This document shows, piece after piece, positions 18,525 to 40,978 of a stretch of 64,000 nucleotides of DNA (its first letter is position 1; each line of letters opens with the position of its first letter). A program made the position numbers and the translations under genes. Below the pieces are notes generated by a model. That model was given only the letters and a program-made list of their open reading frames with translations. It ran no database searches and was not told the origin of the DNA. Source of the DNA: Marinomonas sp. SBI8L (lineage in GTDB: Bacteria; Pseudomonadota; Gammaproteobacteria; Pseudomonadales; Marinomonadaceae); assembly GCF_001624705.1 (NCBI RefSeq), contig NZ_JSEO01000009.1, forward strand, positions 124,001 through 188,000, read 5' to 3'.

Positions 18525-19388
18525 TTAATCTAGGCCGTGCTTGCCTTGATAACCACTGGTTAAAAAGGGCTTTTTCTCAACCTTGTTTGTCTGTGTTGGT
18601 TTATAAATTTCTACCAATAAAGGGTAACAAGCTGTGTCATCATTTGAGTGACTGCTACCACAATCACCTCCTGGGCAGGCTGATAAAGCACCTAATAAAT
18701 CAATCTCAGCATAGAACTCGATAAAATCCCCCGGCCTTACTGGGCTGGCTTTCATGAAATATTGGTGAGTATCTCGGGTAAAGCCAGTACACATAAAGAC
18801 GTTCATAACATCATGAACATGGGGTTCGGCTTGCTCGGCACTCAGTTGCTGAGATTCAGCGAGCGCGCGAGTCAGGTTCGAATGGCAGCAATAATTGTAA
18901 TCCACTTCTTTAAGCATATGGTTGGTGTAAGGATCACAACGTGTCCCTATAACATCATGCACACCAGCGCCATCATCATCCCAGCCATACCAATCTAGCG
19001 TATCCTGAGTAATGGTTGCCATAGGTCTAAGGTACGGTATATTGCTCCAGAGTCTATCACCTGTGTTGAGATGGCTGGCATGGAGTTGGCGAGTTTTACC
19101 GCTAAAAAAACGTTCATTTATATTGTTGGCATTCCATAAGTTGAGGTCGCCTACTTGTGGCCCTTCAACACTGACAATACGAAAGAAATGTCCAGCAGGG
19201 ACTTTGAAACTCTTGCCATCTCTGGGTGGAATTAAGACTTGCGATACCTTTTCCTTGTTCTCTTTTGCTTGTTGGTAAAAAGCCTCATCAAAAGGAGGAA
19301 GACTCTCAACTTGGTAACACACTATGGGTTTTTTCGAGCGTCTAGCCTCTTTATCAGATGGGTGTTTCATATCCTTATCACTGATCAT
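18525..19388 (-). CDS. DUF1989 / urea carboxylase-associated family protein
   Basis: Protein of 287 residues. DUF1989 proteins are often encoded next to urea carboxylase or other nitrogen-compound genes; their reaction is not established. The start at 19388 is chosen for the GGAGAAAG site 4-8 bases upstream; another ATG four codons earlier lacks one. Family features are VPAGHFFRIVSVEGPQVGDL (about 65-84), QLHASHLNTGDRLWSN, MATITQDTLDWYGWDD, GTRCDPYTN, HSNLTRAL, the HDVMNVFMCTGF segment and, late in the protein, ALSACPGGDC with a cysteine pair suggestive of metal binding. Second gene after the VOC protein, divergent from the TRAP operon. Confidence 0.82.
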   Translation of the reverse strand: MISDKDMKHPSDKEARRSKKPIVCYQVESLPPFDEAFYQQAKENKEKVSQVLIPPRDGKSFKVPAGHFFRIVSVEGPQVGDLNLWNANNINERFFSGKTRQLHASHLNTGDRLWSNIPYLRPMATITQDTLDWYGWDDDGAGVHDVIGTRCDPYTNHMLKEVDYNYCCHSNLTRALAESQQLSAEQAEPHVHDVMNVFMCTGFTRDTHQYFMKASPVRPGDFIEFYAEIDLLGALSACPGGDCGSSHSNDDTACYPLLVEIYKPTQTNKVEKKPFLTSGYQGKHGLD

Positions 19389-19462
19389 GTCTTTCTCCAT
19401 TTCTATGAGTCTTAAATGTATCCCTATTTCAGTGCTTTCTTATCTTAATTTAAATCTTTATC

Positions 19463-20264: not shown

Positions 20265-21233
20265 ATGCTTAAAAAAACCTTGCTGACGACATCCATTGTA
20301 TTTGGTGGCTTACTATCTACTGTGAATGCAGCGCAATGGCACATGCCAACCCCTTACGGCGATGCTAATCTTCCGACAAAACTTGCTTATCAATTCGCTG
20401 AAGAAGTTAAACAAAAAACAGAGGGTGATTTAAACATCACAGTTCACTCTGGTGCGTCCTTGGTCAAGCACACCGAAATTCCTCGTGCGGTTAAAACCGG
20501 TCAGGTACAAATGGGTGAAATCTTCATTGGAATCATGGGTAATACTCACCCTGTATTCAAACATGACAACATTCCTTTCTTAGCAACAAACTTTGATGAT
20601 GCTGAAAAACTTTGGCAAGCAGCGAAACCAGAAATGGAAAAGCAGCTGAAGAAAGAAGGTATGAAGTTGCTTTATACCGTTGCTTGGCCTGCGCAGGGTT
20701 TATATACCAAGAAAGCGATTAATAGCTTAGCGGATATTGAAGGTTCAAGAATGCGTGCTTATAGCCCATCTACTTCACGTCTTGCTGATTTGATGGATAC
20801 CACGCCTACGACGATTCAGGTTCCTGAAATTCCACAAGCTTTCAGCACAGGCATTATCGATGCCATGATCACCTCACCAACAACAGGTGTAAATGGTCAA
20901 GCATGGGACTACCTAAGCCATTACAACGATATCCAAGCTTGGATTCCAAAAAATATGGTGGTTGTGAACATGCGTTCTTTCAAACGTCTTGATAAAGACG
21001 TGCAGAAAATCATCATGGCAGCCGCTGCTAATGTTGAAAAGCAAGGTTGGGAACAAGTGCGTATCAATGCTAAGCAAGACACAGATAGCCTAGCCGCTAA
21101 CGGTATTGCCGTATCGACTCCAACAGCTAAGTTAGCAGGCGAGTTTAATAAAATTGGTGAAACTATGACGCAAGAGTGGCTTGATGAGTCTGGCCCAGAA
21201 ATCAAAGCTTTGTTAGAAAACTATCAGCAGTAA
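20265..21233 (+). CDS. TRAP transporter substrate-binding protein (DctP family)
   Basis: Periplasmic receptor of a sodium-driven TRAP importer for an organic acid or amino-acid-like anion; 322 residues. Signal peptide MLKKTLLTTSIVFGGLLSTVNA with cleavage near residue 22. DctP features: NLPTKLAYQFAEEVKQKT, GEIFIGIMGN, WPAQGLYTKKAINSLADIEG and RMRAYSPSTSRL containing the family arginine that pairs with the substrate carboxylate, then QVPEIPQAFSTGIIDAMITS. The ligand is unknown, but the downstream genes point to a D-amino acid, 5-oxoproline or a related compound. Confidence 0.9.
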   Translation: MLKKTLLTTSIVFGGLLSTVNAAQWHMPTPYGDANLPTKLAYQFAEEVKQKTEGDLNITVHSGASLVKHTEIPRAVKTGQVQMGEIFIGIMGNTHPVFKHDNIPFLATNFDDAEKLWQAAKPEMEKQLKKEGMKLLYTVAWPAQGLYTKKAINSLADIEGSRMRAYSPSTSRLADLMDTTPTTIQVPEIPQAFSTGIIDAMITSPTTGVNGQAWDYLSHYNDIQAWIPKNMVVVNMRSFKRLDKDVQKIIMAAAANVEKQGWEQVRINAKQDTDSLAANGIAVSTPTAKLAGEFNKIGETMTQEWLDESGPEIKALLENYQQ

Positions 21234-21303: not shown

Positions 21304-21840
21304 ATGCGTAAATTATTAAATAATATCTATCTAGCATCGGGCTATTTATCTGGACTTAGCATCCTGATGATTACCCTTTTGATAGTGGCGCAAGTGGTAG
21401 GCCGATTATTCGGTTTTATCGTGCCGTCGGCCGAAGACTTTGCTGTCTATAGTTTAGCAGCAGCAACATTTTTTGGTTTAGCTTACACCTTTCATGAAGG
21501 TGGTCATATTCGAGTAACACTCGCCATTAAAGTTTTACCCCCTAAGATACGTCGTTTGCAAGAAGGCTTTATTTTGATTCTTGCTACCTTGCTTGCTTTC
21601 TACATGGCGTATTACATGGTGCATCTAGCTTGGGAATCTTATGACTTTGAAGAGGTTTCTTACGGATACATTCCTATTCCTCTTTGGATGCCACAAGTAC
21701 CTGTTGCCCTAGGGTCTATTATGTTTGCCCTTGCGATCGCAGATGATTTGGTGTGCATGTTGATGGGTAAAACCCCTAAGTACATGCGACATGAAGAGGA
21801 AGAACTGAGTTTGGATAATGATTTAGGAGGTGAGGTCTAA
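21304..21840 (+). CDS. TRAP transporter small permease (DctQ family)
   Basis: Four-helix membrane subunit of 178 residues that bridges the binding protein and the large permease. The start at 21304 (MRKLLNNIYLASG) is preferred; a TTG at 21289 is in frame but has no support. Hydrophobic segments lie at roughly residues 12-33, 46-65, 85-105 and 126-148. The DctQ hallmark PSAEDFAVYSLAAATFFGLAY is at about 42-62, with EGGHIRV following. Its stop overlaps the dctM start by one base. Confidence 0.87.
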   Translation: MRKLLNNIYLASGYLSGLSILMITLLIVAQVVGRLFGFIVPSAEDFAVYSLAAATFFGLAYTFHEGGHIRVTLAIKVLPPKIRRLQEGFILILATLLAFYMAYYMVHLAWESYDFEEVSYGYIPIPLWMPQVPVALGSIMFALAIADDLVCMLMGKTPKYMRHEEEELSLDNDLGGEV

Positions 21841-23150: not shown

Positions 23151-23657
23151 ATGTCTGATAAACGTATTGTCTCTTCTTCACATTTAGCTTCTGAGAAAGG
23201 AGCGTCATTAAGTGAATATGAATTCGGACTGATTATTGCCAATAGTGCTTTTAATCGTTGGATGCAGCATTGTGCTAAGAGTGCGGGGGCCGTTGACCTG
23301 ACACCGCTTGATATCTTAGTTGTGCATCATGTGAATCATAGAGAAAGAGCCAAGCGTTTAGCGGATATCTGCTTTGTACTGAATGTAGAAGATGCACATA
23401 CGGTGAACTATTCACTGAAGAAACTACTTAAACGGGATTTAGTCCAAGGAGAAAAAATAGGCAAGGAAATGTTTTACCGTACTAGCGAAGAGGGACGCAT
23501 TTTTTGTGAAACCTATCGTGATGTACGCGAAGACTGCCTTACAGACTCACTAAAGAATTTTAATTTTTCACCAGAAAAATTATCTGAAATGGCAGAGCAC
23601 TTACGTGCTTTGTCGAGTCTTTATGATCAAGCCTCCAGAGCGGCAGCCTCTCTATAG
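23151..23657 (+). CDS. Winged-helix (MarR-like) transcriptional regulator
   Basis: A 168-residue DNA-binding protein whose ATG lies 3 bases after the dctM stop, so it belongs to the TRAP operon. The winged helix spans about residues 50-125: LTPLDILVVHHVNHRERAKR, ADICFVLNVEDAHTVNYSLK as helix-turn-helix, and EKIGKEMFYRTSEEGRIF as wing. Flanking helices should form the dimer interface as in MarR. Because it sits between the transporter and the D-glutamate genes, it is the best candidate for controlling both; effector unknown. Confidence 0.8.
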   Translation: MSDKRIVSSSHLASEKGASLSEYEFGLIIANSAFNRWMQHCAKSAGAVDLTPLDILVVHHVNHRERAKRLADICFVLNVEDAHTVNYSLKKLLKRDLVQGEKIGKEMFYRTSEEGRIFCETYRDVREDCLTDSLKNFNFSPEKLSEMAEHLRALSSLYDQASRAAASL

Positions 23658-23709: not shown

Positions 23710-23749
23710 ATAAAAAAGGCTGCCAGGCTTGCCTGCCAGCCTTTTTTAT
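23710..23749 (+). terminator. Terminator after the TRAP operon
   Basis: A 19-bp stem (ATAAAAAAGGCTGCCAGGC with its complement, one mismatch) with a TT loop and a T6 run. Confidence 0.85.
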
Positions 23750-23958
23750 ATCTCTATGTTTATAGTTGACTAAACTGTCAAACATTAAAAGGTAGGTATT
23801 AATATCTTTAAAAATAAACTTTAAAAGTAATAAAAACTTTAAAGATTAATTTTTGAAGTGTTATTCACTATTAAAAAAATCTTGTTTGACAGCGTGTCTT
23901 TCTTGTAAGAATGTTGGCCTAAATCAACATTCGCTCATCACAATTTTAAGGTGTTTGT
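23750..23958 (+). promoter_or_regulatory. Promoter region of the D-glutamate/5-oxoproline operon
   Basis: A/T-rich stretch of 209 bases. TTGAC-TAAACT-GTCAA at 23767-23782 is a small dyad that could be an operator. A TTGACA at 23886 may be a -35 element, but no well-spaced -10 follows, so the assignment is weak. AAGGTG precedes the first start codon. Confidence 0.4.
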
Positions 23959-24753
23959 ATGTCACTGAATGCACTATCAACCCCTGCTCAAGTTCGTGAT
24001 CAAATTCGATCAGGACAATGGGGGAAAAACACATCAGGTTTAGCCTCAGGCTATGTACAGGGAAATATTGTTATTCTGCCAAAAGCGTGGGCAGATGATT
24101 TCTTAAAGTTCGCCACACTAAACCCTAAGGCTTGCCCAATTGTGGGTATGTCAGAAAACCCAGGTGATTTCTTATTACCTAACGTGGGTGAAAATGTTGA
24201 TATTCGCAGTGATGTATCAAGCTATAAAATCTTTCGTGATGGGGAATTCAAGCAAGAAGTCAGTGATATCACAGAGTTTTGGCAAGATGACCTTGTGACC
24301 TTTGTGCTGGGTTGCTCTTTCTCATTTGAAGAGCCATTAATCGCAGATGGTTTAGAAGTAAGAAATATCACGGAAAATGTTAACGTGCCTATGTATCGCA
24401 CTAACATTGAATGCCAATCTGCTGGGCCTTTTTCTGGCACAACCGTAGTGAGTATGCGTCCTATGGTGCCTAAAGATGCCATTCGTGCGATTCAAATTTG
24501 TAGCCGCTTTCCTTCTGTTCATGGTGCGCCTTTACACTTTGGTCAGCCAGAGATGATAGGTATTAAAGACATTAATACGCCTGATTTTGGTGATGCTGTC
24601 ACGATTAAAGAAGGTGAAGTGCCTGTGTTCTGGGCTTGTGGTGTGACACCTCAAGTTGCATTAGAACAAGCTAAACCACCATTTTGCATCACCCATAGTC
24701 CGGGTTGCATGTTGGTAACTGATATTCGTAACAGCTCTTTGTCCATTCTTTAA
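23959..24753 (+). CDS. DUF1445 family protein (putative hydro-lyase; N-terminal half of D-glutamate cyclase)
   Basis: A 264-residue YcsI/DUF1445 protein, full length for the family. In animals this domain forms the N-terminal half of mitochondrial D-glutamate cyclase (DGLUCY), which converts D-glutamate to 5-oxo-D-proline; bacterial members carry the name putative hydro-lyase. Conserved stretches are SGLASGYVQGNIVILPK (about 25-41), FVLGCSFSFEEPL (115-127), MYRTNIECQSAGPFSGTTVV (near 144-163), VPVFWACGVTPQVAL and ITHSPGCMLVTD. I recall the usual form of the last motif as PGHM, so the cysteine in place of histidine is notable. First gene of the operon that continues with pxpABC. Confidence 0.87.
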   Translation: MSLNALSTPAQVRDQIRSGQWGKNTSGLASGYVQGNIVILPKAWADDFLKFATLNPKACPIVGMSENPGDFLLPNVGENVDIRSDVSSYKIFRDGEFKQEVSDITEFWQDDLVTFVLGCSFSFEEPLIADGLEVRNITENVNVPMYRTNIECQSAGPFSGTTVVSMRPMVPKDAIRAIQICSRFPSVHGAPLHFGQPEMIGIKDINTPDFGDAVTIKEGEVPVFWACGVTPQVALEQAKPPFCITHSPGCMLVTDIRNSSLSIL

Positions 24754-24760
24754 GGAGACC

Positions 24761-25489
24761 ATGATGAAATTAAACTGTGATTTAGGTGAAAGTTTTGGTT
24801 CTTGGAAAATGGGGTTAGACGAGCAGGTTATGCCGTTTTTAGATCAAGCAAATATTGCTTGCGGTTTCCATGCTGGCGACCCAGTTTGGATGACTAAGAC
24901 GCTAGCATTAGCGGTTGCTAATGGGGTTGAAGTGGGTGCACATCCTGGCTATCCAGACCTTGTTGGTTTTGGCCGTCGTAGTATGAACTGCTCCCATGAT
25001 GAAATTGTGGGTTTAATGCATTATCAAATGGCTGCCTTAGACGGTATGGCTCAAAGCCAAGGCTCTGTTATGACCTATGTAAAACCTCATGGTGCTTTAT
25101 ATAACGACATGATGAGTAAAGACAGTGTGCGTGCGTCTATTATGCAGGCTGTCGCAAGTTTTTATAAACCTGTGCGCTTGGTGCTTCAAGCAACACCAGA
25201 AAGTGCAAAACACAGAGAAGAGGCACAAGCAGCTGGCCTAGAAGTGAGTTTCGAAGCCTTTGCTGACCGTTGTTATGACGATAATGGTCGTTTGTTATCT
25301 CGTGCTAAAGCAGGTGCAGTACATAATCGTGAGCGCATGCTAGCGCAAGTTCAACAGCTAGTGAGCGAAGGGACTGTGACCAGTGTAAGTGGCCATACTT
25401 TAACACTGGATGCCGATACTTTATGTGTACATGGTGACAATGAGGAAGGTGTACGCGCTATCGCTGCCATCCGGGAGCTGATTGTCTAA
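24761..25489 (+). CDS. pxpA: 5-oxoprolinase subunit A (LamB/YcsF family)
   Basis: Subunit of the bacterial ATP-dependent 5-oxoprolinase PxpABC, which opens 5-oxo-L-proline to L-glutamate. 242 residues, full length. Family motifs: LNCDLGESFG at the start, ANIACGFHAGDP (about 31-42), EVGAHPGYPDLVGFGRR (about 56-72), YVKPHGALYNDM (about 106-117) and FADRCYDDNGRLLSR (about 168-182); histidines and acidic residues in these form the metal/substrate site. AGGAG lies before the ATG. Its TAA overlaps the pxpB ATG, giving tight coupling. Confidence 0.94.
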   Translation: MMKLNCDLGESFGSWKMGLDEQVMPFLDQANIACGFHAGDPVWMTKTLALAVANGVEVGAHPGYPDLVGFGRRSMNCSHDEIVGLMHYQMAALDGMAQSQGSVMTYVKPHGALYNDMMSKDSVRASIMQAVASFYKPVRLVLQATPESAKHREEAQAAGLEVSFEAFADRCYDDNGRLLSRAKAGAVHNRERMLAQVQQLVSEGTVTSVSGHTLTLDADTLCVHGDNEEGVRAIAAIRELIV

Positions 25490-26226
25490 TGAATACTGTC
25501 ACAACACCAAAAGTTTCAGCGCAGATGCTTCCGCATTTGCGTCTGAAAGTCGCTGGTGAGCAAGCGTTTATTTTATATTTTGCAGAACAAACGAGTACCC
25601 AAGTTGCAGCCCAAATTCAGGCTGCAACCCAAGCTTTAGTTGAGCTAGTTGGTCATAGTTTGATTGATCTAGTGCCTTCTTATGCGTCTTTACTGGTCGT
25701 TTTTGATGATAATCAACTCGAGTTTTATCAAGCCCGCCAACTTGTGCTGGAACGCATTCGTCAAGCGGCTATGCAAGCTGAAGAGGAAGCGTCACAAGCG
25801 GGTAATCAGATTATTCTACCTGTTTATTACGATGTGGAGTCTGGCCCAGATTTAGAAGATCTGGCGCGTGCGAAAGCGCTGACAACCGATGAAATTATCA
25901 AGCTGCATTATGAGCAAGAGTATCGCGTTTATGCCATAGGCTTTGCACCTGGTTTTGCTTATTTAGGTGAGCTTGATGAGCGCCTTGCTGCGCCAAGACT
26001 GGCAACGCCAAGAAAGGCGGTACCAAAAGGTGCAGTCGCGATTGCCGATAGACAAACAGCGGTTTATCCGTCTGTTTCTCCTGGTGGTTGGAACCTGATT
26101 GGTTTATGTCCTGTGCCTATGTTTGATGTGACGAAAACACCAAGTATGCCCATGACAACCGGAGACAGAATTAAGTTCGAGCCGATTTCAAAAGCAGATT
26201 TTATCGCCATGGGAGGTGAGCTATGA
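25489..26226 (+). CDS. pxpB: 5-oxoprolinase subunit B (KipI family)
   Basis: A 245-residue subunit of PxpABC, homologous to KipI and to the carboxyltransferase-like half of allophanate hydrolase/urea carboxylase. The characteristic segments are IILPVYYDVESGPDLEDLAR (about 105-124), YRVYAIGFAPGFAYLG (near 146-161), and PRKAVPKGAVAIADRQTAVY with SPGGWNLIG following. The N-terminal part (to about residue 90) is the less conserved KipI arm. Overlaps pxpC as ATGA. In Bacillus, KipI also inhibits a sporulation kinase, but here the operon makes the metabolic role far more likely. Confidence 0.93.
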   Translation: MNTVTTPKVSAQMLPHLRLKVAGEQAFILYFAEQTSTQVAAQIQAATQALVELVGHSLIDLVPSYASLLVVFDDNQLEFYQARQLVLERIRQAAMQAEEEASQAGNQIILPVYYDVESGPDLEDLARAKALTTDEIIKLHYEQEYRVYAIGFAPGFAYLGELDERLAAPRLATPRKAVPKGAVAIADRQTAVYPSVSPGGWNLIGLCPVPMFDVTKTPSMPMTTGDRIKFEPISKADFIAMGGEL

Positions 26227-27176
26227 ACACCTTTAAAGTGATTAACCCTGGGGTAATGTCCTTATTACAAGATGCAGGCCGTTTTGGTCAGCATAATATT
26301 GGCCTGACAGTCGGTGGTCCTATGGACCCTTTTGCTTTCACTTGGGCTAATCGTCTTTGTCAAAATGAGGTAGGTGCTACCTCAATAGAAATAACCATTG
26401 GTGGCTTACAACTAGAAGCCATGACAGATACGCAAATTGCCATCACAGGTGCTGAAACTCAGGTTAAAGTGAACAACCAAGAGCTGCCAATGTGGCAAAC
26501 ATTGAATATTAAAGCCGGTGATAAGATCAAGCTGGGCTTTGCTAGCCAAGGCGCGCGTATTTATTTAGCTGTTGCGGGTGGCTTTGATGTCGAAGCGCAA
26601 TTTGGTAGTACAGCAACCGTTGTGCGTGAAGGTATTGGTGGTTTAACGGGAGCAGCGTCAAGCGGTAAAGGGCTTGCAAAAGAAGACATACTAGCGAGCC
26701 ATGATGTGACAACTATTAGCCCTTTGGCTATGCCGAAGTTAGCGATACCTAATTATGATGCTGAGTGCGTTTTACATACGGTTTTAGGCTATCAAGAAGC
26801 CAGCTTTAGTCGTGTGGATAAAGCGTCTTTTTTTAGTTGTGAATATACAGTGAGTGAAAGGGCTGACCGCATGGGCTATCGCATGTTAGGGCCAGCAATT
26901 CATTCAAGCACAAACGCTATGTTGTCTGAGGGTATTTGTCATGGAGCGATTCAGGTACCTGCTGATGGCCAACCTATTGTCCTTCTAAATGACAGGCAAA
27001 CCATAGGTGGCTACCCAAAAATTGGCTCAGTTATGGCGCGAGATACGGCAAAACTAGCTCAATTGACCCAAGGTAAAAAGCTACGTTTTGAACCTGTTTC
27101 GATTGAAGATGCCCATGGCATAAACCAGATTCAAAAATATAAAGAGTCACAAATTACACTAGTTAAAGTGGTCTAG
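26223..27176 (+). CDS. pxpC: 5-oxoprolinase subunit C (biotin-dependent carboxyltransferase-like, KipA family)
   Basis: Third subunit of PxpABC, 317 residues. Typical motifs: MSLLQDAGRFGQHNIGLTVG (about 13-32), GGPMDPFAFTWANRL, ARIYLAVAGGFDVE (about 114-127), SERADRMGYRMLG (near 214-226), and GAIQVPADGQPIVLLNDRQT with GGYPKIGSV. No biotin is used by this branch despite the family name. Ends two bases before the GTG of the DUF4392 gene. Confidence 0.93.
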   Translation: MNTFKVINPGVMSLLQDAGRFGQHNIGLTVGGPMDPFAFTWANRLCQNEVGATSIEITIGGLQLEAMTDTQIAITGAETQVKVNNQELPMWQTLNIKAGDKIKLGFASQGARIYLAVAGGFDVEAQFGSTATVVREGIGGLTGAASSGKGLAKEDILASHDVTTISPLAMPKLAIPNYDAECVLHTVLGYQEASFSRVDKASFFSCEYTVSERADRMGYRMLGPAIHSSTNAMLSEGICHGAIQVPADGQPIVLLNDRQTIGGYPKIGSVMARDTAKLAQLTQGKKLRFEPVSIEDAHGINQIQKYKESQITLVKVV

Positions 27177-27178
27177 CC

Positions 27179-28105
27179 GTGAGAAAGTCAAGCCGAGCAT
27201 TTGATTTAACCACAGGTAGCCATGTCTTTGATTTAAAAGAGTTAGGAGACCGGACAATGGGGTCGATTGAAGAAACAAGTTATGCCTTAGAAGCGCTGTT
27301 AGTTGAGCGTAATTTAAGAGGTATGGCTGAGGTGAAACCTGCGCTTAAACCTGGTTATAGCTTAAGAGCGGCTTGTCTTTTAGCGGATGTAGCAACAACC
27401 CAAGGTTGCGTTTTTATTGGTACAGGCTTTCCTGTTACAGATACCTTTGAAACCGACGGTCCTGTGGGTGCGATTGCTTTATATGAAGCTTTGGAAAAAT
27501 TGGGTGCTAAGCCTGTCATCGTATGTGGCCCTCCATTATCTGATGCGATTGCAAAAGAGTATCGCGTTGAACCACTTAAACTGGGGACAGCACACGATAG
27601 AGTAGCAGAAGCCAAAGCGGCGTTAGCTAAGTGGCAGCCTCAACTATTATTATCAATTGAGCGCCCTGGTATGGCTGCCGATGGTGGTTACTACAATATG
27701 CGTGGTGAAGATATCAGTCCACGTACTGCTTGTTTTGATAGCTTTATGCTTGAGTGCGAATGCCCAACCATTGCGATTGGTGATGGTGGCAATGAAATTG
27801 GCATGGGGAATGTGACCTCAGCCTTAGAGAGCTTAAACATAGTGCCAGCTTCTACCAAGTGTGATGAGCTTGTTATTGCTGATGTTTCCAATTGGGGCGG
27901 CTATGGTTTGATTGCGCTACTTGGGCAAATGGAAGAAAGGGATCTATTAGGTGAAATACACCCGATTAAAATTCTGCAATACCTATCTAATTTAGGCAGT
28001 GTAGACGGGGTAACTCGCTTAAATCAATTAACGGAAGATGGATTGGAAGCGAGTGCTGGTGATGAACTTATTGTTAAGTTACGCCAACTCACAGGCTTTG
28101 CCTGA
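27179..28105 (+). CDS. DUF4392 family protein (glutamate cyclase-like; C-terminal half of D-glutamate cyclase)
   Basis: A 308-residue protein whose domain corresponds to the C-terminal half of animal D-glutamate cyclase. Recognisable parts are VFIGTGFPVTDTFETDGPVG (about 79-98), ALEKLGAKPVIVCG, LLLSIERPGMAADGGYYNMR (about 160-179), TIAIGDGGNEIGMGNV (about 197-212) and the GGYGLIALLG region near residue 240; the GxGGNE(I/V)GMG segment is the clearest family mark. The GTG at 27179 is coupled to pxpC but has a poor ribosome site. An ATG at 27257 has AGGAG 8 bases upstream and would remove 26 residues; which is used is undecided. Its partner domain DUF1445 opens the same operon. Confidence 0.85.
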   Translation: MRKSSRAFDLTTGSHVFDLKELGDRTMGSIEETSYALEALLVERNLRGMAEVKPALKPGYSLRAACLLADVATTQGCVFIGTGFPVTDTFETDGPVGAIALYEALEKLGAKPVIVCGPPLSDAIAKEYRVEPLKLGTAHDRVAEAKAALAKWQPQLLLSIERPGMAADGGYYNMRGEDISPRTACFDSFMLECECPTIAIGDGGNEIGMGNVTSALESLNIVPASTKCDELVIADVSNWGGYGLIALLGQMEERDLLGEIHPIKILQYLSNLGSVDGVTRLNQLTEDGLEASAGDELIVKLRQLTGFA

Positions 28106-28164
28106 AACCGCTGTAAATCGATAAAAATTAGACATTAAAGACAGAGATTATAGAGGATACAAAA

Positions 28165-29022
28165 ATGAGCATTGTTTATCTTAATGGTCAGTTTATGCCA
28201 ATTGAAGAGGCGAAAATTTCGCCATTAGATCGCGGCTTTTTGTTTGGCGACGGCATTTATGAAGTCATCCCAGCTTATGATGGTAAAACAGTGGGTCTTG
28301 AGCCTCATATGCAGCGTATGTTTGATGGCATGGCGGCAATTGGTATCAAGTCTGAGTTAAGCCTAGATGATTGGAAAGAAATCATTGAAGGTGTGATGGA
28401 GAAAAATGGCGGCGGTAACCAAGGTATTTATCTACAAATCAGCCGTGGCGCTGATGTGAAACGCTACCATGCTTTCCCAGAAGGTGTGACGCCAACTATT
28501 TTTGCTATGGCTAACCCAATTAAACCTGCGGTTGAAGCCAATGCTGCTACGGCAAAAGGTTTCTCTGTAGCTACGACTCAAGATTTACGCTGGCAGCGTT
28601 GCCAAATTAAATCGACCGCTTTGTTAGGTAATGTGCTGCATTTCCAGCAAGGTTATGAAGGTGGTAACGATGAGATCTTGCTTTATAACGATCAAAACAA
28701 TCTAACTGAAGCGAGCTCTTCAAATGCTTTTATTGTTAAAGATGGCAAGGTAATTACACCGATTCAGGATAACCAAATCCTACCGGGTATCACTCGTAAC
28801 ATTATCTTATCTATCCTTGAAAAAGATGGCTCTATTCCTGTTGAAGAACGTGATATTTCAATGGAAGAAGTACGTAATGCTGATGAAATTTGGGTTACTA
28901 GCTCATCTAAAGAGCTTGCTCCTGTGACAACCATCGATGGCCAAGCTGTTGGTAATGGTAAAGTAGGCCCTGTTTGGGAAGCTGCTTTTAAATTGTACAC
29001 AGCAAGCAAGTTCGAATACTAA
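28165..29022 (+). CDS. dat: D-amino acid transaminase
   Basis: PLP enzyme moving amino groups between D-amino acids and 2-oxo acids, typically D-alanine + 2-oxoglutarate to pyruvate + D-glutamate. 285 residues, fold type IV. MSIVYLNGQFMPIEEAKI and SPLDRGFLFGDGIYEV form the start, QISRGADVKRYHAFP (91-105) lies near the carboxylate trap, K149 in RCQIKSTALLGNVL is the PLP lysine, and LTEASSSNAFIV holds the PLP-binding glutamate. The spacing R-x-x-I-K-S and the RGADVKRYH segment match D-specific rather than branched-chain enzymes. It lies 59 bases after the DUF4392 gene with a GAGGA ribosome site, so it is part of the operon and can feed D-glutamate to the cyclase. Confidence 0.9.
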   Translation: MSIVYLNGQFMPIEEAKISPLDRGFLFGDGIYEVIPAYDGKTVGLEPHMQRMFDGMAAIGIKSELSLDDWKEIIEGVMEKNGGGNQGIYLQISRGADVKRYHAFPEGVTPTIFAMANPIKPAVEANAATAKGFSVATTQDLRWQRCQIKSTALLGNVLHFQQGYEGGNDEILLYNDQNNLTEASSSNAFIVKDGKVITPIQDNQILPGITRNIILSILEKDGSIPVEERDISMEEVRNADEIWVTSSSKELAPVTTIDGQAVGNGKVGPVWEAAFKLYTASKFEY

Positions 29023-32973: not shown

Positions 32974-33777
32974 TTATTTATACAAGCCATTCATGCCCAA
33001 AGCAAAAGGGGTGTTTTTAAGGCCGTATTTGCTTTCTAAATCTAATATGAAGCCTGTTTTGTGCCACTCTATAATGGTGCTATTCATAAAACTATGGAAT
33101 CTATCTTCACCTAATCTGACGGCTAATCCCCAAGGATTATCATTGATGGTTGGGAGAGGCATTTCATAGTCCTGTGCCCATTCTGCGTCTTTAAGCTTAC
33201 CAGCAATAAAAGAGTCATCGTAGACAAACGCGCTGCATTTACCTTGTTTTAACGCTTCTAGAGACTCTTCAGAACTGCCGAAAGGCACTATCGTCGCACC
33301 AAAGGTATTTTCTGTTTCTTGATTATAAAAAGCGCCTTTGATACCGCAGACTTTTTGCCCGTTTAAATCACCCCAACTGGTATATTGGCTAGATTTGTTG
33401 GCAATGATATTACTGCCAGAAGAGTAATAAGCTTGGTCTGCAATATAAACAAGTTCGCGGCGCTCAGGCTTGTCACTCATGGTGGCAATGAGTAAATCCA
33501 CCTTGCCATCAATCAAGAATTCCATACGGTTACTGCTTTGCGCTGGTACCAGCTCAAGTGAGACACCTAATCTATCCGCTACGTCTTGAGCAAGGTCTAT
33601 CTCTAATCCCACAATGTCATTTTGCTCATTACGATAACCATAGGGTTTATAGTCGGCTTTCACCGCAACAACTAGCGTGCCTTTGGCTTTAATATCATCC
33701 AAATCGTCCGCATTGGCGGCAGAGGAGAAGCCAAGTAGGCTGATTAGAATCGAACTTAGGGTCGTTATTTTCTTCAT
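32974..33777 (-). CDS. Periplasmic amino-acid-binding protein (SBP family 3)
   Basis: A 267-residue binding protein with signal peptide (cleavage near ANA/DDL, about residue 23). Family-3 features: GTLVVAVKADYKPYGYR (about 34-50), GLEIDLAQDVADRLGV (57-72), GKVDLLIATMSDKPERR (92-108) and LNGQKVCGIKGAFYNQ. The arginine in KPERRELV binds the ligand alpha-carboxylate in relatives. No permease or ATPase genes accompany it. It lies behind a terminator-like hairpin after the DAACS symporter, so it may serve a remote transporter or act as an extracytoplasmic sensor for the local two-component system. Confidence 0.87.
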   Translation of the reverse strand: MKKITTLSSILISLLGFSSAANADDLDDIKAKGTLVVAVKADYKPYGYRNEQNDIVGLEIDLAQDVADRLGVSLELVPAQSSNRMEFLIDGKVDLLIATMSDKPERRELVYIADQAYYSSGSNIIANKSSQYTSWGDLNGQKVCGIKGAFYNQETENTFGATIVPFGSSEESLEALKQGKCSAFVYDDSFIAGKLKDAEWAQDYEMPLPTINDNPWGLAVRLGEDRFHSFMNSTIIEWHKTGFILDLESKYGLKNTPFALGMNGLYK

Positions 33778-33802
33778 AGTACTTTCCTGCGGTTTGATGA
33801 AT

Positions 33803-33841
33803 AAAAAAAGGGCAACCTAACGGTGGCTTGCTAGATTGCCC
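33803..33841 (-). terminator. Terminator/attenuator between symporter and binding-protein genes
   Basis: On the minus strand GGGCAA-CTA pairs with TAG-TTGCCC and is followed by T7. Only 25 bases remain before the binding-protein start, too few for an independent promoter beyond the hairpin, so that gene is presumably expressed by read-through or from a promoter overlapping the hairpin. Confidence 0.7.
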
Positions 33842-33896
33842 AAAAGCTTAAATTGACGAATAAAAGCTTGCTGAAATTGTGAATTCTTTCCTGTGT

Positions 33897-35162
33897 TTAG
33901 GCTTGCTGATTAGCAAGGTTCTCTTTGTTATAGATAGCCTTGTCTAGTTCGCCTTCACTCTTACCCACTATGGTTGATACCATCATGTCGCCACATACGT
34001 TCACACTAGTACGTGCCATATCTAGAATACGGTCGATACCCGCAACAATGGCTAGACCTTCAATTGGTAGACCAACAGTAGTTAAAACAAGAGACAACAT
34101 GATCAAACCCGCACCTGGAACACCGGCTGTACCGATAGAGGCTAAGGTTGATGTCATAATGATAAGTAAGTAATCAGAGGTGGTTAGATCAATACCGAAT
34201 GCTTGGGCAATGAAGAGAGCACATACACCTTGGTAAAGGGCTGTACCGTCCATATTGATAGTGGCACCTAGCGGAAGAACAAAACTAGAAATACCTTTAG
34301 ATACACCAAGCTCTTCACGGGCTGCCTTGATAGTGGCTGGTAAAGTACCAGAGCTACTTGTTGTGGTAAAAGCAACCGCAGCTGGGTTAAGCACACCTTT
34401 TAAGTAGCGAACTGGGCTTAGGCCACCAATAGTGGTGATAATGCCTGAGTACACGACAACAACATGCAAGATACAGCCAATGTAAACCAGTGCAACTAGC
34501 TTGATTAGAGGCAGTAGAATCTCAAGACCATATTTACCTGCAACCCAAGCCATAAGACCAAATACACCGTATGGCGCTAGTTTCATAACCATTTCAGTAA
34601 GCTTGTACATAGCTTCTGCAAGGCTGTCGAATACAGCAATAGCTGGTTTCGCTTTCTCACCAACGAGTGTTAGCGCAATACCTAAACCAATCGCAAAAGC
34701 GATGATCTGTAGAATGTTGCCAGACGCTAATGCATTGATTGGGTTTTTAGGGATGATATTCAGTAAGGTTTGCACTAACGGTGGTGCATCTTTACCTACC
34801 GCAGCACCTGCTTCAACCGTCATGTTAAGACCTGCACCAGGCATGAAAACAGCAGCCAGTGTTAAACCTATAGTAATGGCAACGGCTGTTGTACCTAGGT
34901 AAAGGGCAACAGATTTCATACCAATGCGGCCCATTTTGCGTGTGTCTTCTAATGACGTTACACCAACAACCAAAGAACAGAAGATCAATGGCACAATCAG
35001 CATTTTGATTGCATTAATGAAGAGGGTTCCTATCGGTTTTAATACTTCGGCGTTAGGGCCTAAGATAGCCCCAGCGATGACGCCAAGAACCATACCGATA
35101 AGAATTTTATGCCATAAGGCTAGACCTGGCTTAGCAGGGCTTTGTGCTTGAGATATAGACAT
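33897..35162 (-). CDS. Dicarboxylate/amino acid:cation symporter (DAACS family)
   Basis: Secondary importer for glutamate/aspartate or C4-dicarboxylates, 421 residues with eight transmembrane helices and two re-entrant loops. The first re-entrant loop has the serine-rich TTTSSSGTLPATIKAA and the next helix has LPLGATINMDGTALYQG. The second loop is ASIGTAGVPGAGLIMLSLVL, and GIDRILDMARTSVNVCGD contains the substrate-binding D and the conserved NVxGD-like motif. In GltP/EAAT-type transporters an arginine in the last helix selects amino acids; here the equivalent stretch MARTSVNVCGD fits an aspartate/glutamate transporter. Downstream of aspA by 76 bases, so it probably supplies aspartate to that enzyme. 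Confidence 0.92.
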   Translation of the reverse strand: MSISQAQSPAKPGLALWHKILIGMVLGVIAGAILGPNAEVLKPIGTLFINAIKMLIVPLIFCSLVVGVTSLEDTRKMGRIGMKSVALYLGTTAVAITIGLTLAAVFMPGAGLNMTVEAGAAVGKDAPPLVQTLLNIIPKNPINALASGNILQIIAFAIGLGIALTLVGEKAKPAIAVFDSLAEAMYKLTEMVMKLAPYGVFGLMAWVAGKYGLEILLPLIKLVALVYIGCILHVVVVYSGIITTIGGLSPVRYLKGVLNPAAVAFTTTSSSGTLPATIKAAREELGVSKGISSFVLPLGATINMDGTALYQGVCALFIAQAFGIDLTTSDYLLIIMTSTLASIGTAGVPGAGLIMLSLVLTTVGLPIEGLAIVAGIDRILDMARTSVNVCGDMMVSTIVGKSEGELDKAIYNKENLANQQA

Positions 35163-35238
35163 GTGATTACCTTTTTATAATTAGATTTACGCCTACTAAT
35201 AGGCTTGGACATATTTAAGTTATTGTTATATTTCGGTT

Positions 35239-36678
35239 TTAAGAGGCTTGTGCTTCCCTATGTTGAGGTTTAACCATGTTCTTTGGTTGTAAGCAGGTTT
35301 TAAGCTCTTTTTCATCCATGAGGTTTTCATCTAACACCAGATCTAACACACTGCGACCAGTGGCTAGAGCCTGTTTAGCAACACGGGTTGCTGTTTCATA
35401 ACCCAGAGTTGGCGCTATGGCTGTGATAATGCCAATGCTGTTATTTACCAACTCTTGGCATCTATCTTTATTGGCTGTAATCCCTTGAATACAGCGTGTT
35501 TCTAGCATGCCCATGGACTTAGTCAGTAGACGAATAGACTCAAGTACCTTGTAGGCAATTAAGGGTTCCATGGCATTGAGTTGAAGTTGGCCCGCTTCTG
35601 CAGCAAAGGTAATCGCAAGATCATTCCCCATGACTTGATAAGCCACCTGATTCATGGCTTCTGGGATCACAGGGTTAATCTTGCCTGGCATGATTGAGCT
35701 ACCTGGTTGTGCTGCAGGCAGTTGGATTTCAGCTAAACCACAGCGAGGGCCCATGCTTAAAAGGCGTAAGTCGTTGGATATTTTCGATAGCTTGACGGCT
35801 AAGCGTTTCAACATACTAGAGAAAAGAACAAAGGCGCCCATGTCAGAGCTTGCTTCGATTAGATCTGTAGCAAGAATAAAATCTATGCCTGTTAGGTTTG
35901 CTAACTCTTGTACGGCTAGTGGCGCATAATCTGAGTGGGTATTAATGCCTGTGCCAATTGCTGTGCCACCCAGATTTACTTCTTTAAGTAACTGGGACAG
36001 GTCAGCAATTCGTTGAATATCTTCGTTTAGCGTACTGGCAAAAGACTGGAACTCTTGCCCTAGAGTCATGGGTACTGCATCTTGTAGCTGAGTACGGCCC
36101 ATCTTGATAATGTCGTTAAACTCTAACGCTTTATTGCTAAAGGTATCGCGCAAAGAGGTCAGGGCTTCAACCAGTTGGCTATGCAGTAAAATAATGGAAA
36201 GGCGAACGGCAGTTGGATAAACATCATTGGTGGATTGGGATTTATTGATGTCATTATTTGGGTGAAGGTGAGTATAGTGTCCCTTCTCCTTACCCATAAG
36301 TTCTAGGCCAATATTAGCGATAACTTCATTGGCATTCATATTGGTGGACGTACCTGCCCCACCTTGAATCATGTCGACAACAAAGTCTTCATGGTGATAG
36401 CCCTGTAGAACTTTATTGGCCGCAGCCTCTATGATTTGTGTTTTGTGATCGGACAATTGCCCCAGCTGATTATTGGTTTTGGCGCAGGCAAGTTTCACAT
36501 AAGCTAGCGCATTAACAAGCTCAGGAAAGTGATTGATAGGTATGCCTGATAAATCAAAGTTGTGGCATGCGCGGCGGGTTTGAATACCATAATAAGCACT
36601 TTTAGGCACATCAAGTTCGCCTAATAAGTCTTTCTCTTTGCGCATGGATTGCAATGTGTCAGTCGCTGGTGTGTGCAT
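35239..36678 (-). CDS. aspA: Aspartate ammonia-lyase
   Basis: Splits L-aspartate into fumarate and ammonia; cytoplasmic homotetramer. 479 residues with all fumarase/aspartase signatures: GGAGTSTNMNANEVIAN (107-123), SQSTNDVYPTA (148-158), MGRTQLQDAVPMTLGQEF (193-210), and the catalytic-serine loop GSSIMPGKINP (326-336). Asparate-specific TQLQDAV and GTGINTH are present rather than the fumarase TH(L/T)QDA pattern. The first 11 residues are not conserved; a start at 36645 (MRKEKDLLG) would fit known AspA, but GAGAACA supports 36678. Preceded by a sigma54-type promoter and first in an aspA-DAACS unit. Confidence 0.93.
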   Translation of the reverse strand: MHTPATDTLQSMRKEKDLLGELDVPKSAYYGIQTRRACHNFDLSGIPINHFPELVNALAYVKLACAKTNNQLGQLSDHKTQIIEAAANKVLQGYHHEDFVVDMIQGGAGTSTNMNANEVIANIGLELMGKEKGHYTHLHPNNDINKSQSTNDVYPTAVRLSIILLHSQLVEALTSLRDTFSNKALEFNDIIKMGRTQLQDAVPMTLGQEFQSFASTLNEDIQRIADLSQLLKEVNLGGTAIGTGINTHSDYAPLAVQELANLTGIDFILATDLIEASSDMGAFVLFSSMLKRLAVKLSKISNDLRLLSMGPRCGLAEIQLPAAQPGSSIMPGKINPVIPEAMNQVAYQVMGNDLAITFAAEAGQLQLNAMEPLIAYKVLESIRLLTKSMGMLETRCIQGITANKDRCQELVNNSIGIITAIAPTLGYETATRVAKQALATGRSVLDLVLDENLMDEKELKTCLQPKNMVKPQHREAQAS

Positions 36679-36752
36679 CTTGTTCTCATTCTTATCATAA
36701 TTATTTCAAGCAATTTCAGGCTTAAAGCCTGTGCTTGATTAGTGAACTAGAT

Positions 36753-36768
36753 TGCAATTCGGGGGCCA
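36753..36768 (-). promoter_or_regulatory. Sigma54 (-24/-12) promoter for aspA
   Basis: The minus strand reads TGGCCCCCGAATTGCA: a -24 element TGGC and a -12 element TTGCA, with the GG and GC doublets spaced as in the consensus TGGCACG-N4-TTGCA. It lies 75 bases before the aspA start. A sigma54 activator is encoded immediately upstream, which supports the assignment. Confidence 0.75.
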
Positions 36769-36890
36769 GTTTTTTATATATGCTTAACTGATTGAAATAT
36801 AAGGAAAAAATATAATATCGAAGAGGGTGAAGGGGTATAACTCAGGGAATAGGGATAAATGACTTTTGATAAAACCCTTATTTATCAGTT

Positions 36891-36934
36891 GGTTAGCTTG
36901 CTAACCTAGGTTATAGAATTAACCTAGGTTATAG
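36891..36934. promoter_or_regulatory. Candidate upstream activator sites for the sigma54 promoter
   Basis: TAACCTAGGTTATAG occurs twice, at 36902-36916 and 36920-36934 (18-base period), each containing the palindrome AACCTAGGTT. A dyad GGTTAG-CTTG-CTAACC lies next to them at 36891-36906. They are about 130-170 bases upstream of the -24/-12 element, the usual distance for enhancer sites bound by NtrC-type activators. Part of the same stretch could also act as a weak terminator for the regulator gene. Confidence 0.6.
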
Positions 36935-36958
36935 GGGTTAAATTAGGGTAGGAAGCCG

Positions 36959-38380
36959 TTACTGGCTATTCGCCTTTTTAATGCGTTTACTTAAAGCTGG
37001 TTGAGAGATTCCCACAAGGCGGGACGCAATAGACTGGTTACCTTTGGCTCTTAACATGGCTTCTTCTATCAGTAGATCACCAATTTCAGTTAGGGAGGGT
37101 AAGCTTTGTTCTGGGTTAAAGCTGATACAAGCTTGTTCTTCTGTGCTATCAGTCCAAGCTTGAGATAAGTCTTTAGGGCTGATGAGATCTTTAAATGAAT
37201 CCATAGATAACATCTTGCTACGATGTAACCCCATTGCTTTAAATGCTAGCGCTCTTAGCTCTCGTACATTGCCAGGAAAGGCATAATTAGATAATAAAAC
37301 AGGCAGTTCTTTTGGAATAGCTGGCTTAGTTTTATTCAACTCGGTTGCGGCTTCTTCAAGAAAAAGGTCGAGCAGAATGGCGATGTCACCACGGCGTTGG
37401 CGCAGTGGCGGGATACTGACTTGATGGGTTTGTAAGCGATAATAAAGGTCTTTTCTAAACTCGCCTGCTTCTTGTTTTTGCGTTAAATCCTGATGAGTAG
37501 CGACCACGACTCTGGCATTAAGGCGTTTAGGGTGGTCACTGCCAAGTGGATAGTATTCACCTTCTTGCAATAAGCGCAGTAATTTCACCTGAGACATCAG
37601 GCTCAAATCACCTATTTCATCTAAAAATAAGGTACCACCATTGGCTTGTTCTATCATGCCTGCTCGAGCTTTTTCGGCTCCTGAAAAAGCCCCTCGGCTA
37701 TGACCAAATAGGGTATCGGAGAACATATTATCATCCAGCCCAGCCACGTTAACACTGACAATGGGGCCAGACTTGTGACTCAGTTTGTGAATCGCTTGGG
37801 CGATGAGCTCTTTACCCACACCGCTTTCACCATTAATCATAATTGGCTGGTTACTGGCAGCAATCGCTTCTAAATACTGGAAAATAGAACGCATGTTTTT
37901 GTCTAGGGTGAGAATGCTTTCGAACACTTCTGGGTGTTCTAAGGTGTCATTCAAAAACCGAGACCTTAATTTGTCATTCTCAGAGCGCATTTCGATACTG
38001 CGAATGGTGCGCTTGATACCTTCGATTAAGTGTACTTCGTCTGTGGTTTTGACAAAGTAATCCAAGGCCCCCAAACGTATGCATTGCATGGCAATCTCGA
38101 TTTGATTGAGACCACTGATAATAATGACCTTTACATGAGGGTGCGTTTCTAGAATTTGCTCAAGCAGCGACATGCCCGTCACATTGGGCATGTTGAGGTC
38201 TAGCAGCACAAGCTCAATCGGGTGTTGCTCTAACATATCTAGCACATTACGACTGTCATTGGTTTGGAACAGGTGATTAATACCGCCACGACGTTTGAGT
38301 GTCATGGTTAAACTGCGTAAGAATGAATCTTCATCGTCGACTAATAAAATGCCAAAGTCTGGGTAAAGGTTGTTACTCAT
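36959..38380 (-). CDS. Sigma54-dependent response regulator (NtrC/DctD type)
   Basis: Transcription activator of 473 residues in three parts. The receiver domain (about 1-125) has the acidic pocket VDDED, phospho-acceptor D61 in LLDLNMP and K111. The AAA+ domain has Walker A GESGVGKE (184-191), the sigma54-contact loop GAFSGA (230-235, usually GAFTGA), Walker B GGTLFLDEIGDL (248-259) and RLQTHQVSIPPLRQRRGDI. A Fis-type helix-turn-helix closes the protein (GNQSIASRLVGISQPALSKRI). It overlaps the sensor kinase gene as ATGA and is followed by the aspA promoter, so it most likely activates aspA and the symporter. Confidence 0.93.
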   Translation of the reverse strand: MSNNLYPDFGILLVDDEDSFLRSLTMTLKRRGGINHLFQTNDSRNVLDMLEQHPIELVLLDLNMPNVTGMSLLEQILETHPHVKVIIISGLNQIEIAMQCIRLGALDYFVKTTDEVHLIEGIKRTIRSIEMRSENDKLRSRFLNDTLEHPEVFESILTLDKNMRSIFQYLEAIAASNQPIMINGESGVGKELIAQAIHKLSHKSGPIVSVNVAGLDDNMFSDTLFGHSRGAFSGAEKARAGMIEQANGGTLFLDEIGDLSLMSQVKLLRLLQEGEYYPLGSDHPKRLNARVVVATHQDLTQKQEAGEFRKDLYYRLQTHQVSIPPLRQRRGDIAILLDLFLEEAATELNKTKPAIPKELPVLLSNYAFPGNVRELRALAFKAMGLHRSKMLSMDSFKDLISPKDLSQAWTDSTEEQACISFNPEQSLPSLTEIGDLLIEEAMLRAKGNQSIASRLVGISQPALSKRIKKANSQ

Positions 38381-40167: not shown

Positions 40168-40318
40168 CTTATTCCAACAAGTGTTAGCAATTTTGCGCGA
40201 ATGGATAAATTCATCTTAAATGAAATTCATCCTTTGAATCTATTACTTATTTCGCCAGACACAAAGAATGTCTAAATTCTAAAAAGAGGGTATTTAATGA
40301 CTAAAACGTGCAATCACA

Positions 40319-40891: not shown

Positions 40892-40978
40892 GATGCGGAC
40901 CCAACTTAAGTGTATTGCTTAAGTATAGACGGGCTTGGGAAGAAGTAAGCTGGGGTCGCACATAGCTTATAACCCGTT

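Follow-up and report, generated by a model that had tools for sequence, protein, structure and literature searches.

A conserved six-gene D-glutamate/5-oxoproline unit in Marinomonas and a possible role of DUF1445 in the use of 5-oxoproline

The 64,000 nucleotides of Marinomonas sp. SBI8L analysed here (contig NZ_JSEO01000009.1, positions 124,001 to 188,000; hereafter the window) carry an operon of six genes at 23959-29022 of the plus strand, in the order DUF1445, pxpA, pxpB, pxpC, DUF4392 and dat. DUF1445-like and DUF4392-like domains together make up the mammalian mitochondrial D-glutamate cyclase DGLUCY/GLUCM (EC 4.2.1.48), which makes 5-oxo-D-proline from D-glutamate. The mammalian product is reported as the D form, and the operon differs in that the two domains are separate genes with the 5-oxoprolinase genes pxpABC in between. 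There were two main findings. Firstly, the data support the six genes as a conserved D-glutamate/5-oxoproline unit and not a chance assembly. Secondly, DUF1445 tracks 5-oxoproline, not D-glutamate.

Our tentative reading is that the operon turns D-glutamate into L-glutamate via 5-oxoproline. DUF4392, dependent on Mn, would cyclise D-glutamate to 5-oxo-D-proline; DUF1445 would invert this to 5-oxo-L-proline by means of Cys119 and Cys227, with His246 assisting; and PxpABC would use ATP to open 5-oxo-L-proline to L-glutamate. The transaminase Dat, joined by an alanine racemase in many relatives, would exchange amino groups among D-alanine, D-glutamate and keto acids, whereby D-alanine and D-glutamate of peptidoglycan turnover would enter a single route. 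In this species an importer of the tripartite ATP-independent periplasmic (TRAP) type would probably supply external 5-oxoproline too. What was directly observed is gene content, conservation, co-occurrence, the conserved metal ligands and a set of cysteines and a histidine. All the reactions named, and the direction of flow, are inferred from it, most of all the inversion by DUF1445. In Gammaproteobacteria, including many marine ones, the operon would likely be an ATP-driven return of cell-wall D-glutamate to L-glutamate. The reading also divides the work of a human mitochondrial enzyme between its two halves in a way that can be tested, suggesting two different jobs, and it would assign a function to DUF1445, which is widespread in bacteria and whose annotation is still 'putative hydro-lyase'.

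The six-gene unit and its conservation

A first-pass annotation of the window, made from the sequence alone, had read six genes in this order, and Pfam confirmed all of them. The features of the unit, all on the plus strand, are:

23959-24753, plus strand: PF07286 gene (D-Glu_cyclase, formerly DUF1445); Pfam 226 bits; NCBIfam NF003969 'putative hydro-lyase' 408.6 over a cut-off of 324
24761-25489, plus strand: pxpA, 5-oxoprolinase subunit A; PF03746 300 bits; NF003816 337 over a cut-off of 213
25489-26226, plus strand: pxpB, 5-oxoprolinase subunit B; PF02682 227 bits; TIGR00370 164 over a cut-off of 145.6
26223-27176, plus strand: pxpC, 5-oxoprolinase subunit C; PF02626 284 bits; TIGR00724 239 over 230
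27257-28105 (probable; a longer frame starts from GTG 27179), plus strand: PF14336 gene (GLUCM-like_C, formerly DUF4392); Pfam 225.6 bits
28165-29022, plus strand: Dat-like class IV aminotransferase; PF01063 170 bits
29055-29082, plus strand: terminator hairpin of 12 pairs with a T run at the 3' end of the unit

The Pfam names of both DUF families already refer to D-glutamate cyclase, and DUF4392 genes are annotated as 'glutamate cyclase domain-containing protein' in many plasmid records. PxpABC is established as 5-oxoprolinase (PMC13274462, PMC10448178); it requires three subunits, and all three were found above Pfam cut-offs. PxpC scored 207 bits with the equivalog model NF045499, under its cut-off of 500, and passed only the broader TIGR00724. 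The aminotransferase had been named a D-amino acid transaminase; it fell below both NCBIfam cut-offs for that function (261 versus 320 and 242 versus 277 bits), while its nearest PDB entries, 4pbc, 4m0j, 9pxs and 3daa, are D-amino acid aminotransferases and agree with the name.

Translation of DUF4392 probably starts at ATG 27257 rather than at GTG 27179, judging from the sequence, since GGAGA precedes 27257, disorder is predicted for the N-terminal 25 residues of the longer version (pLDDT < 50), and in seven of the eight other genus members the alignment begins only at residue 22-34. The exceptions are genus member L010, which aligns from residue 2 but through a stop, and two same-class members aligning from residues 4 and 16 (L and G numbers denote loci and genomes). 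The earlier description of all junctions as coupled or near-coupled therefore needs amendment. The first three are tight, with a 7-nt gap between DUF1445 and pxpA, a 1-nt overlap of pxpA and pxpB and a 4-nt overlap of pxpB and pxpC; with the start at ATG 27257 the last two become gaps of about 80 and 59 nt.

An alignment scan of species genomes for DUF4392 gave at least 533 confirmed places, of which the best 80 were retained as a locus set; by their titles 78 are gammaproteobacterial and two only 'Proteobacteria'. The exact order DUF1445-pxpA-pxpB-pxpC-DUF4392-dat was found in 54 of these 80 loci, and the single genes were present in 68 (DUF1445), 72 (PxpA), 71 (PxpB), 76 (PxpC) and 71 (Dat), several absences being due to contig ends or overlap filtering (L033 and L035 were complete when open reading frames were viewed). 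The gene matches and the conserved order rule out a chance cluster or mis-called genes; co-occurrence of DUF1445, DUF4392 and pxp genes in other genomes, which the first-pass annotation had named as a check, was thus borne out. Among the 12 loci with no DUF1445 at the spot, the gene was found elsewhere in the genome for L083, L094, L096, L099 and L109 and for five of the other seven. A replacement gene at the five named loci was considered and rejected, as the tested neighbours were unrelated (AFG1 ATPase, amidase, thioesterase, PqiA).

Two further samples were used, a phylum sample of 299 genomes and 40 genomes of the genus. DUF4392 was rare in both (7 of 299, 9 of 40). The exact six-gene order recurred in seven of the eight other DUF4392 genomes of the genus (L023-L029); the eighth, L022, has DUF4392-dat beside DUF1445-dctPQM-pxpABC. 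Two members of the same class were L020, with all six genes, and L021, where pxpA is missing at the spot and lies elsewhere in the genome. The unit was absent from the four DUF4392 loci outside Gammaproteobacteria (L016-L019), and ten proteins scanned in their surroundings had no common theme. At one of them, L019 in genome G108, which has no DUF1445, DUF4392 lies two genes away from a Mur-ligase-type protein. DUF4392 occurs at two places on several plasmids of Sinorhizobium and Bradyrhizobium; on Bradyrhizobium plasmid NZ_CP088278.1 (L247) a gene annotated as selenocysteine synthase lies between two DUF4392 genes, amid genes of amino acid ABC transporters.

The input of the operon is likely D-alanine and D-glutamate from the cell wall, because an alanine racemase follows Dat in many loci and a peptidoglycan-type hydrolase gene accompanies some units. 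The racemase gene lies within 400 nt after Dat on the same strand, often 3 nt behind it, in 28 of the 61 loci among the best 80 that have Dat and at least 1.3 kb behind it, which strengthens the link to D-amino acids already proposed in the first pass. A glycoside hydrolase family 3 (GH3) gene precedes DUF1445 in two Pseudoalteromonas replicons and in L021; that of replicon L251 is closest to YbbD/NagZ of B. subtilis (384.5 bits to 3BMX). Enzymes of the NagZ/YbbD type belong to peptidoglycan recycling. A GH3 gene like that of L251 was found in none of the 80 DUF4392 loci.

Known pxp operons share pxpABC with the unit, namely those of B. subtilis (pxpABC with ycsG and ycsI) and C. glutamicum (pxpTABC). 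Both differ in having an NRAMP-family transporter, and DUF4392, Dat and alanine racemase are not described there in the accessible text. Gut-bacterial GLUCM homologues with the halves as adjacent genes appear in a table of PMC11580864 (nFull 0, nSplit 6), as a count only, with no operon or pathway in the accessible part. In the literature searched, which included few subscription papers, we found no description of the six-gene operon, its spread or separate roles of the two domains.

DUF1445 and 5-oxoprolinase across genomes

In the 299-genome sample DUF1445 was found in 43 genomes, five of which have DUF4392 anywhere and three within 8.5 kb, the distance taken as neighbourhood. Thus 38 have no DUF4392 at all and 40 none nearby; two of the seven DUF4392 genomes (G057, G108) lack DUF1445, and obligatory co-occurrence of the two was not observed in this sample. 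All 43 DUF1445 genomes encode a 5-oxoprolinase: PxpA in 35, and in eight (G012, G019, G183, G197, G246, G247, G274, G297) a full-length enzyme of the OPLAH type of about 1200 amino acids, counted in DUF1445 genomes only. Six OPLAH genes were found by direct search with the G019 protein as query, the other five being 59-66% identical to it, and those beside DUF1445 in G246 and G297 are full-length matches (79% to the G019 and 87% to the G012 protein); Pfam gave hydantoinase/oxoprolinase A and B domains on the G019 and G012 proteins. PxpA was present in 35 of 43 genomes with DUF1445 versus 57 of 256 without it (Fisher p = 1.2e-13, an overstated value as the genomes are related). In 24 of the 43 genomes DUF1445 has a 5-oxoprolinase gene in its 8.5-kb neighbourhood (pxp in 18, OPLAH in six). 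Since 57 of the 92 PxpA genomes have no DUF1445, PxpABC does not need DUF1445. The occurrence of DUF1445 without DUF4392 nearby in 40 of 43 genomes, and always with a 5-oxoprolinase, argues for a job of its own at 5-oxoproline and speaks against the first-pass proposal that both proteins act as one cyclase.

The same was seen within the genus, where DUF1445 occurs in 36, PxpA in 40 and DUF4392 in nine of the 40 genomes. There is no DUF4392 in 27 of the 36 DUF1445 genomes, and 26 of these read DUF1445-dctP-dctQ-dctM-pxpA-pxpB-pxpC; in the remaining one, L148 (G308), DUF1445 stands beside pxpABC without TRAP genes. The DUF1445 gene of L197 (G307), beside TRAP and pxpABC genes and counted among the 26, is broken by two stop codons. 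In plasmid records of a Lactiplantibacillus, a Klebsiella and a Bartonella, pxp genes occur with DUF1445 and an NRAMP transporter, and a Paraburkholderia record reads DUF1445-MFS-oxoprolinase. Plasmids L248, L249 and L252 likewise carry DUF1445 with pxp, NRAMP and biotin carboxylase genes, and of 240 plasmid records matching DUF1445, 93 are from Klebsiella. Among 14 control genomes PF07286 was found in B. subtilis alone, and we take ycsI to be this gene. The pxp operon of B. subtilis contains ycsI (PMC10448178).

In a tree of 141 DUF1445 proteins, made by a quick search and having many open forks and some long branches, the two operon types separate, with four label changes versus 46.6 in shuffles. 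Six genus rows of the DUF4392 type, the window protein included, group together (SH-aLRT 100); two more such genus rows fall with other genera. The TRAP-type rows form a long-branched clade of their own, consisting of the 26 rows without DUF4392 and the G306 row.

Directly upstream of the six genes in the window are genes of a TRAP importer:

20265-21233, plus strand: TRAP solute-binding protein DctP; PF03480; closest PDB entries 2PFY/2PFZ of Bordetella pertussis
21304-21840, plus strand: TRAP small permease DctQ; PF04290
21840-23147, plus strand: TRAP large permease DctM; PF06808

Against solved receptors, DctP scored 312.6 bits with 2pfy, 254.7 with 2pfz and 209.9 with 6wgm, the next solved TRAP receptor reaching 83.8; by overall score it is thus closest to 2PFY/2PFZ, which we take to be the pyroglutamate-binding DctP6 and DctP7 of B. 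pertussis. If so, these are its closest solved relatives, and the importer of this species probably takes up external 5-oxoproline as well. The structures of DctP6 and DctP7 contain bound 5-oxoproline, and the two proteins differ from the present case in lying near a gene for a eukaryotic-type 5-oxoprolinase (PMC13274462). A second DctP, at L157 beside DUF1445 and OPLAH, is also closest to 2PFZ (326.7 bits).

Of the 40 DUF1445 genes without DUF4392, 34 have an importer of the TRAP, NRAMP, LIV-type ABC or CitMHS type within 8.5 kb, versus none of the best 80 DUF4392 loci, 46 of which have both 10-kb flanks. The NRAMP, LIV and CitMHS queries were drawn from DUF1445 loci and bias this sum in their favour; the comparison for TRAP alone, made with queries from the window, is free of this bias and gave 17 of 40 versus 0 of 80. 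The survey covered these four types, so that an MFS gene adjoining a Pseudoalteromonas unit stands outside the count. In the genus and class DUF4392 set, four of 11 had an importer (the window, L022, L024 and L026). The contrast is expected if DUF4392 units make 5-oxoproline inside the cell and the others import it.

Roles of the two domains

DUF4392 of the window matches the structures of TON_0340 from Thermococcus onnurineus (4DWZ, 4FC5, 5GKX) with 102 bits. The metal ligands of TON_0340 are Glu59, Asp61, Glu115, Asp157, Glu161 and Asp246, of which Glu59 contacts Mn only via water (PMC5132392). By alignment their equivalents in the window are E91, D93, E161, D202, E206 and D287, and all six were invariant in 11 sequences. 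The best reading of DUF4392, judged from these residues and its relatives, is an Mn-dependent D-glutamate cyclase, since mouse DGLUCY is a D-glutamate cyclase (PMC5339696) and DUF4392 is the part found without DUF1445, in two bacterial genomes here and in archaea (PMC5132392). A racemase function of DUF4392 was considered and rejected: the protein behind this idea, from T. lienii, is annotated as Asp/Glu/hydantoin racemase and itself carries DUF4392, and no glutamate racemase activity is reported (PMC5339696).

Residues of DUF1445, whose solved homologues are 2pif and 3db9, were counted in 176 sequences (175 and the window), which form 36 groups at 70% identity. Broken hits, that of L197 among them, and those spanning fewer than about 235 residues were left out, as was one further G043 copy (C1737). 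E124, R167, H188, Y89, T230 and Q232 were invariant, C59 was present in 175, C119 in 173, and C227 and H246 each in 172. Three related, divergent sequences (L163, L164, L191) have C119S, C227S and H246A/V all together, and a CitMHS-type transporter adjoins L163 and L164; this group probably has a different substrate or reaction. L148, the locus without TRAP genes, has kept C119 and lost C227 and H246, and its DUF1445 is perhaps decaying. In the predicted structure (mean pLDDT 93.4), C119 sits between strand 112-118 and helix 120-129, and C227 between strand 221-226 and helix 229-238. In cofactor-free two-cysteine racemases each half places a cysteine at the N-terminus of a helix. Because of the genomic context and the conserved cysteines, DUF1445 would most likely invert 5-oxo-D-proline to 5-oxo-L-proline with the pair Cys119/Cys227 and the help of His246. 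The likeness to DapF, MurI and proline racemase is confined to this proposed working principle.

Such an inversion would remove the stereochemical problem of the operon. The first-pass annotation had pointed out that known PxpABC acts on the L form, and had offered either a PxpABC accepting the D form or epimerisation by a DUF protein; the latter would fit the context of DUF1445 better. DUF1445 and DUF4392 are fused in higher animals, and sequentially linked functions were suggested in 2016 (PMC5132392), which fits separate cyclase and DUF1445 steps. The wider proposal, that DUF1445 is a cofactor-free 5-oxoproline racemase (Cys119/Cys227) used with both kinds of 5-oxoprolinase and several kinds of importer, and that DGLUCY is a cyclase-racemase fusion, is possible and on the doubtful side. 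If true, animal DGLUCY would be two sequential enzymes, once or still returning D-glutamate to L-glutamate. We know of no earlier 5-oxoproline racemase; the literature searched, again with few subscription papers, held neither a 5-oxoproline (pyroglutamate) racemase or epimerase nor a 5-oxo-D-prolinase.

Several points weigh against the proposed route. No kinship of DUF1445 to DapF or Asp/Glu racemases, the only families compared, was detectable by hhalign (probability 0.0 and 0.1%), and no repeat between its halves (0.3%, non-overlapping halves). E124, R167, H188, Y89 and C59 are as conserved as the proposed pair or more so, and may point to a metal site or other chemistry. Full-length DGLUCY of the mouse, made recombinantly and containing the DUF1445 domain, is reported to give 5-oxo-D-proline in an assay with D and L standards, and human excretion is mainly of 5-oxo-D-proline (PMC5339696); with an active racemase domain both forms would be expected. 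The animal domain may have lost its activity, or the assay may not have been favourable. The genome has DUF1445 for 78 of the best 80 DUF4392 loci, which a two-subunit cyclase would predict equally, and DUF4392 of Thermococcus is reported as a phosphatase (PMC5132392). Finally, two Pseudoalteromonas replicons (L245, L251) read DUF1445-pxpA-DUF4392-dat and L109 reads pxpA-DUF4392-dat, with no pxpBC in between, so that the last step can be arranged differently; PxpA may work there without PxpBC or with a distant PxpBC.

Four other readings were weighed. The first has DUF1445 serving the use of 5-oxoproline in another capacity, as a metal- or thiol-dependent lyase or hydrolase on a relative of 5-oxoproline, or as an accessory to 5-oxoprolinase or transport. 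The context data name a pathway and not a reaction, the NCBIfam label is 'putative hydro-lyase', and three cysteines and several histidines and glutamates are conserved; the step from D to L would stay unfilled unless PxpABC accepts the D form, and we regard this reading as rather unlikely. It is unlikely, too, that DUF1445 and DUF4392 are obligatory halves of one D-glutamate cyclase with a PxpABC accepting 5-oxo-D-proline. The fusion of both domains in animal DGLUCY (PMC5339696, PMC5132392) and the near-constant company of DUF1445 in the best DUF4392 genomes speak for such a pair. Against it stand a DUF1445 mostly without DUF4392, a DUF4392 without DUF1445 in G057, G108 and archaea (PMC5132392), and the pairing of DUF1445 with OPLAH-type 5-oxoprolinases and importers of the 5-oxoproline type in settings that offer no substrate for a cyclase.

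Flow in the opposite direction would make a racemase unnecessary. Imported racemic 5-oxoproline would be split, PxpABC opening the L form with ATP. The D form would be hydrolysed to D-glutamate by DUF4392, and this D-glutamate drained by Dat, together with alanine racemase, to 2-oxoglutarate and alanine. The pyroglutamate-type TRAP importer upstream in the window and TRAP genes near the unit in three relatives would suit this, and an ATP-independent 5-oxoprolinase is on record as a reference title in PMC13274462. We hold this scheme quite unlikely, as the four surveyed importer types were absent from the 80 DUF4392 loci (types outside the survey, among them that of the MFS gene close to a Pseudoalteromonas unit, being uncounted) and DUF1445 would have no role. 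Hydrolysis of 5-oxoproline without ATP is, moreover, unfavourable. Very improbable is a DUF4392 that is a small-molecule phosphatase like TON_0340, in an operon acting on gamma-glutamyl phosphate or a similar compound. TON_0340 shares the family and the six acidic ligands and differs in being a stand-alone archaeal protein reported as a phosphatase; its activity is Mn-dependent and lost in the D157L and E59Q mutants, yet just 20 phosphate compounds at hand were tried (PMC5132392). D-glutamate is cyclised by mouse DGLUCY and increases when this enzyme is lost (PMC5339696), and the remaining genes of the operon are D-amino acid and 5-oxoproline genes.

Surroundings of the unit

Between the TRAP genes and the six-gene unit lie a regulator gene and then about 300 bases with a hairpin:

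23151-23657, plus strand: MarR-like winged-helix regulator; PF13463 71.3 bits; MarR_2 below cut-off
23715-23750, plus strand: terminator-like hairpin at the boundary of the TRAP-marR genes and the six-gene unit; core stem 23725-23742 with a T tail

The hairpin is weak by itself, as 11 terminator-like sites were found in the region versus 8.4 expected. A DUF1989 gene at 18525-19400 lies on the opposite strand upstream of the TRAP genes, and a DUF1989 gene is also found near the DUF1445 cluster of Klebsiella. On the minus strand, 32974-43241 codes for a periplasmic amino-acid-type binding protein, an SDF dicarboxylate symporter, an aspartase/fumarase-type lyase and two-component systems, perhaps a neighbouring region for uptake and use of acidic amino acids.

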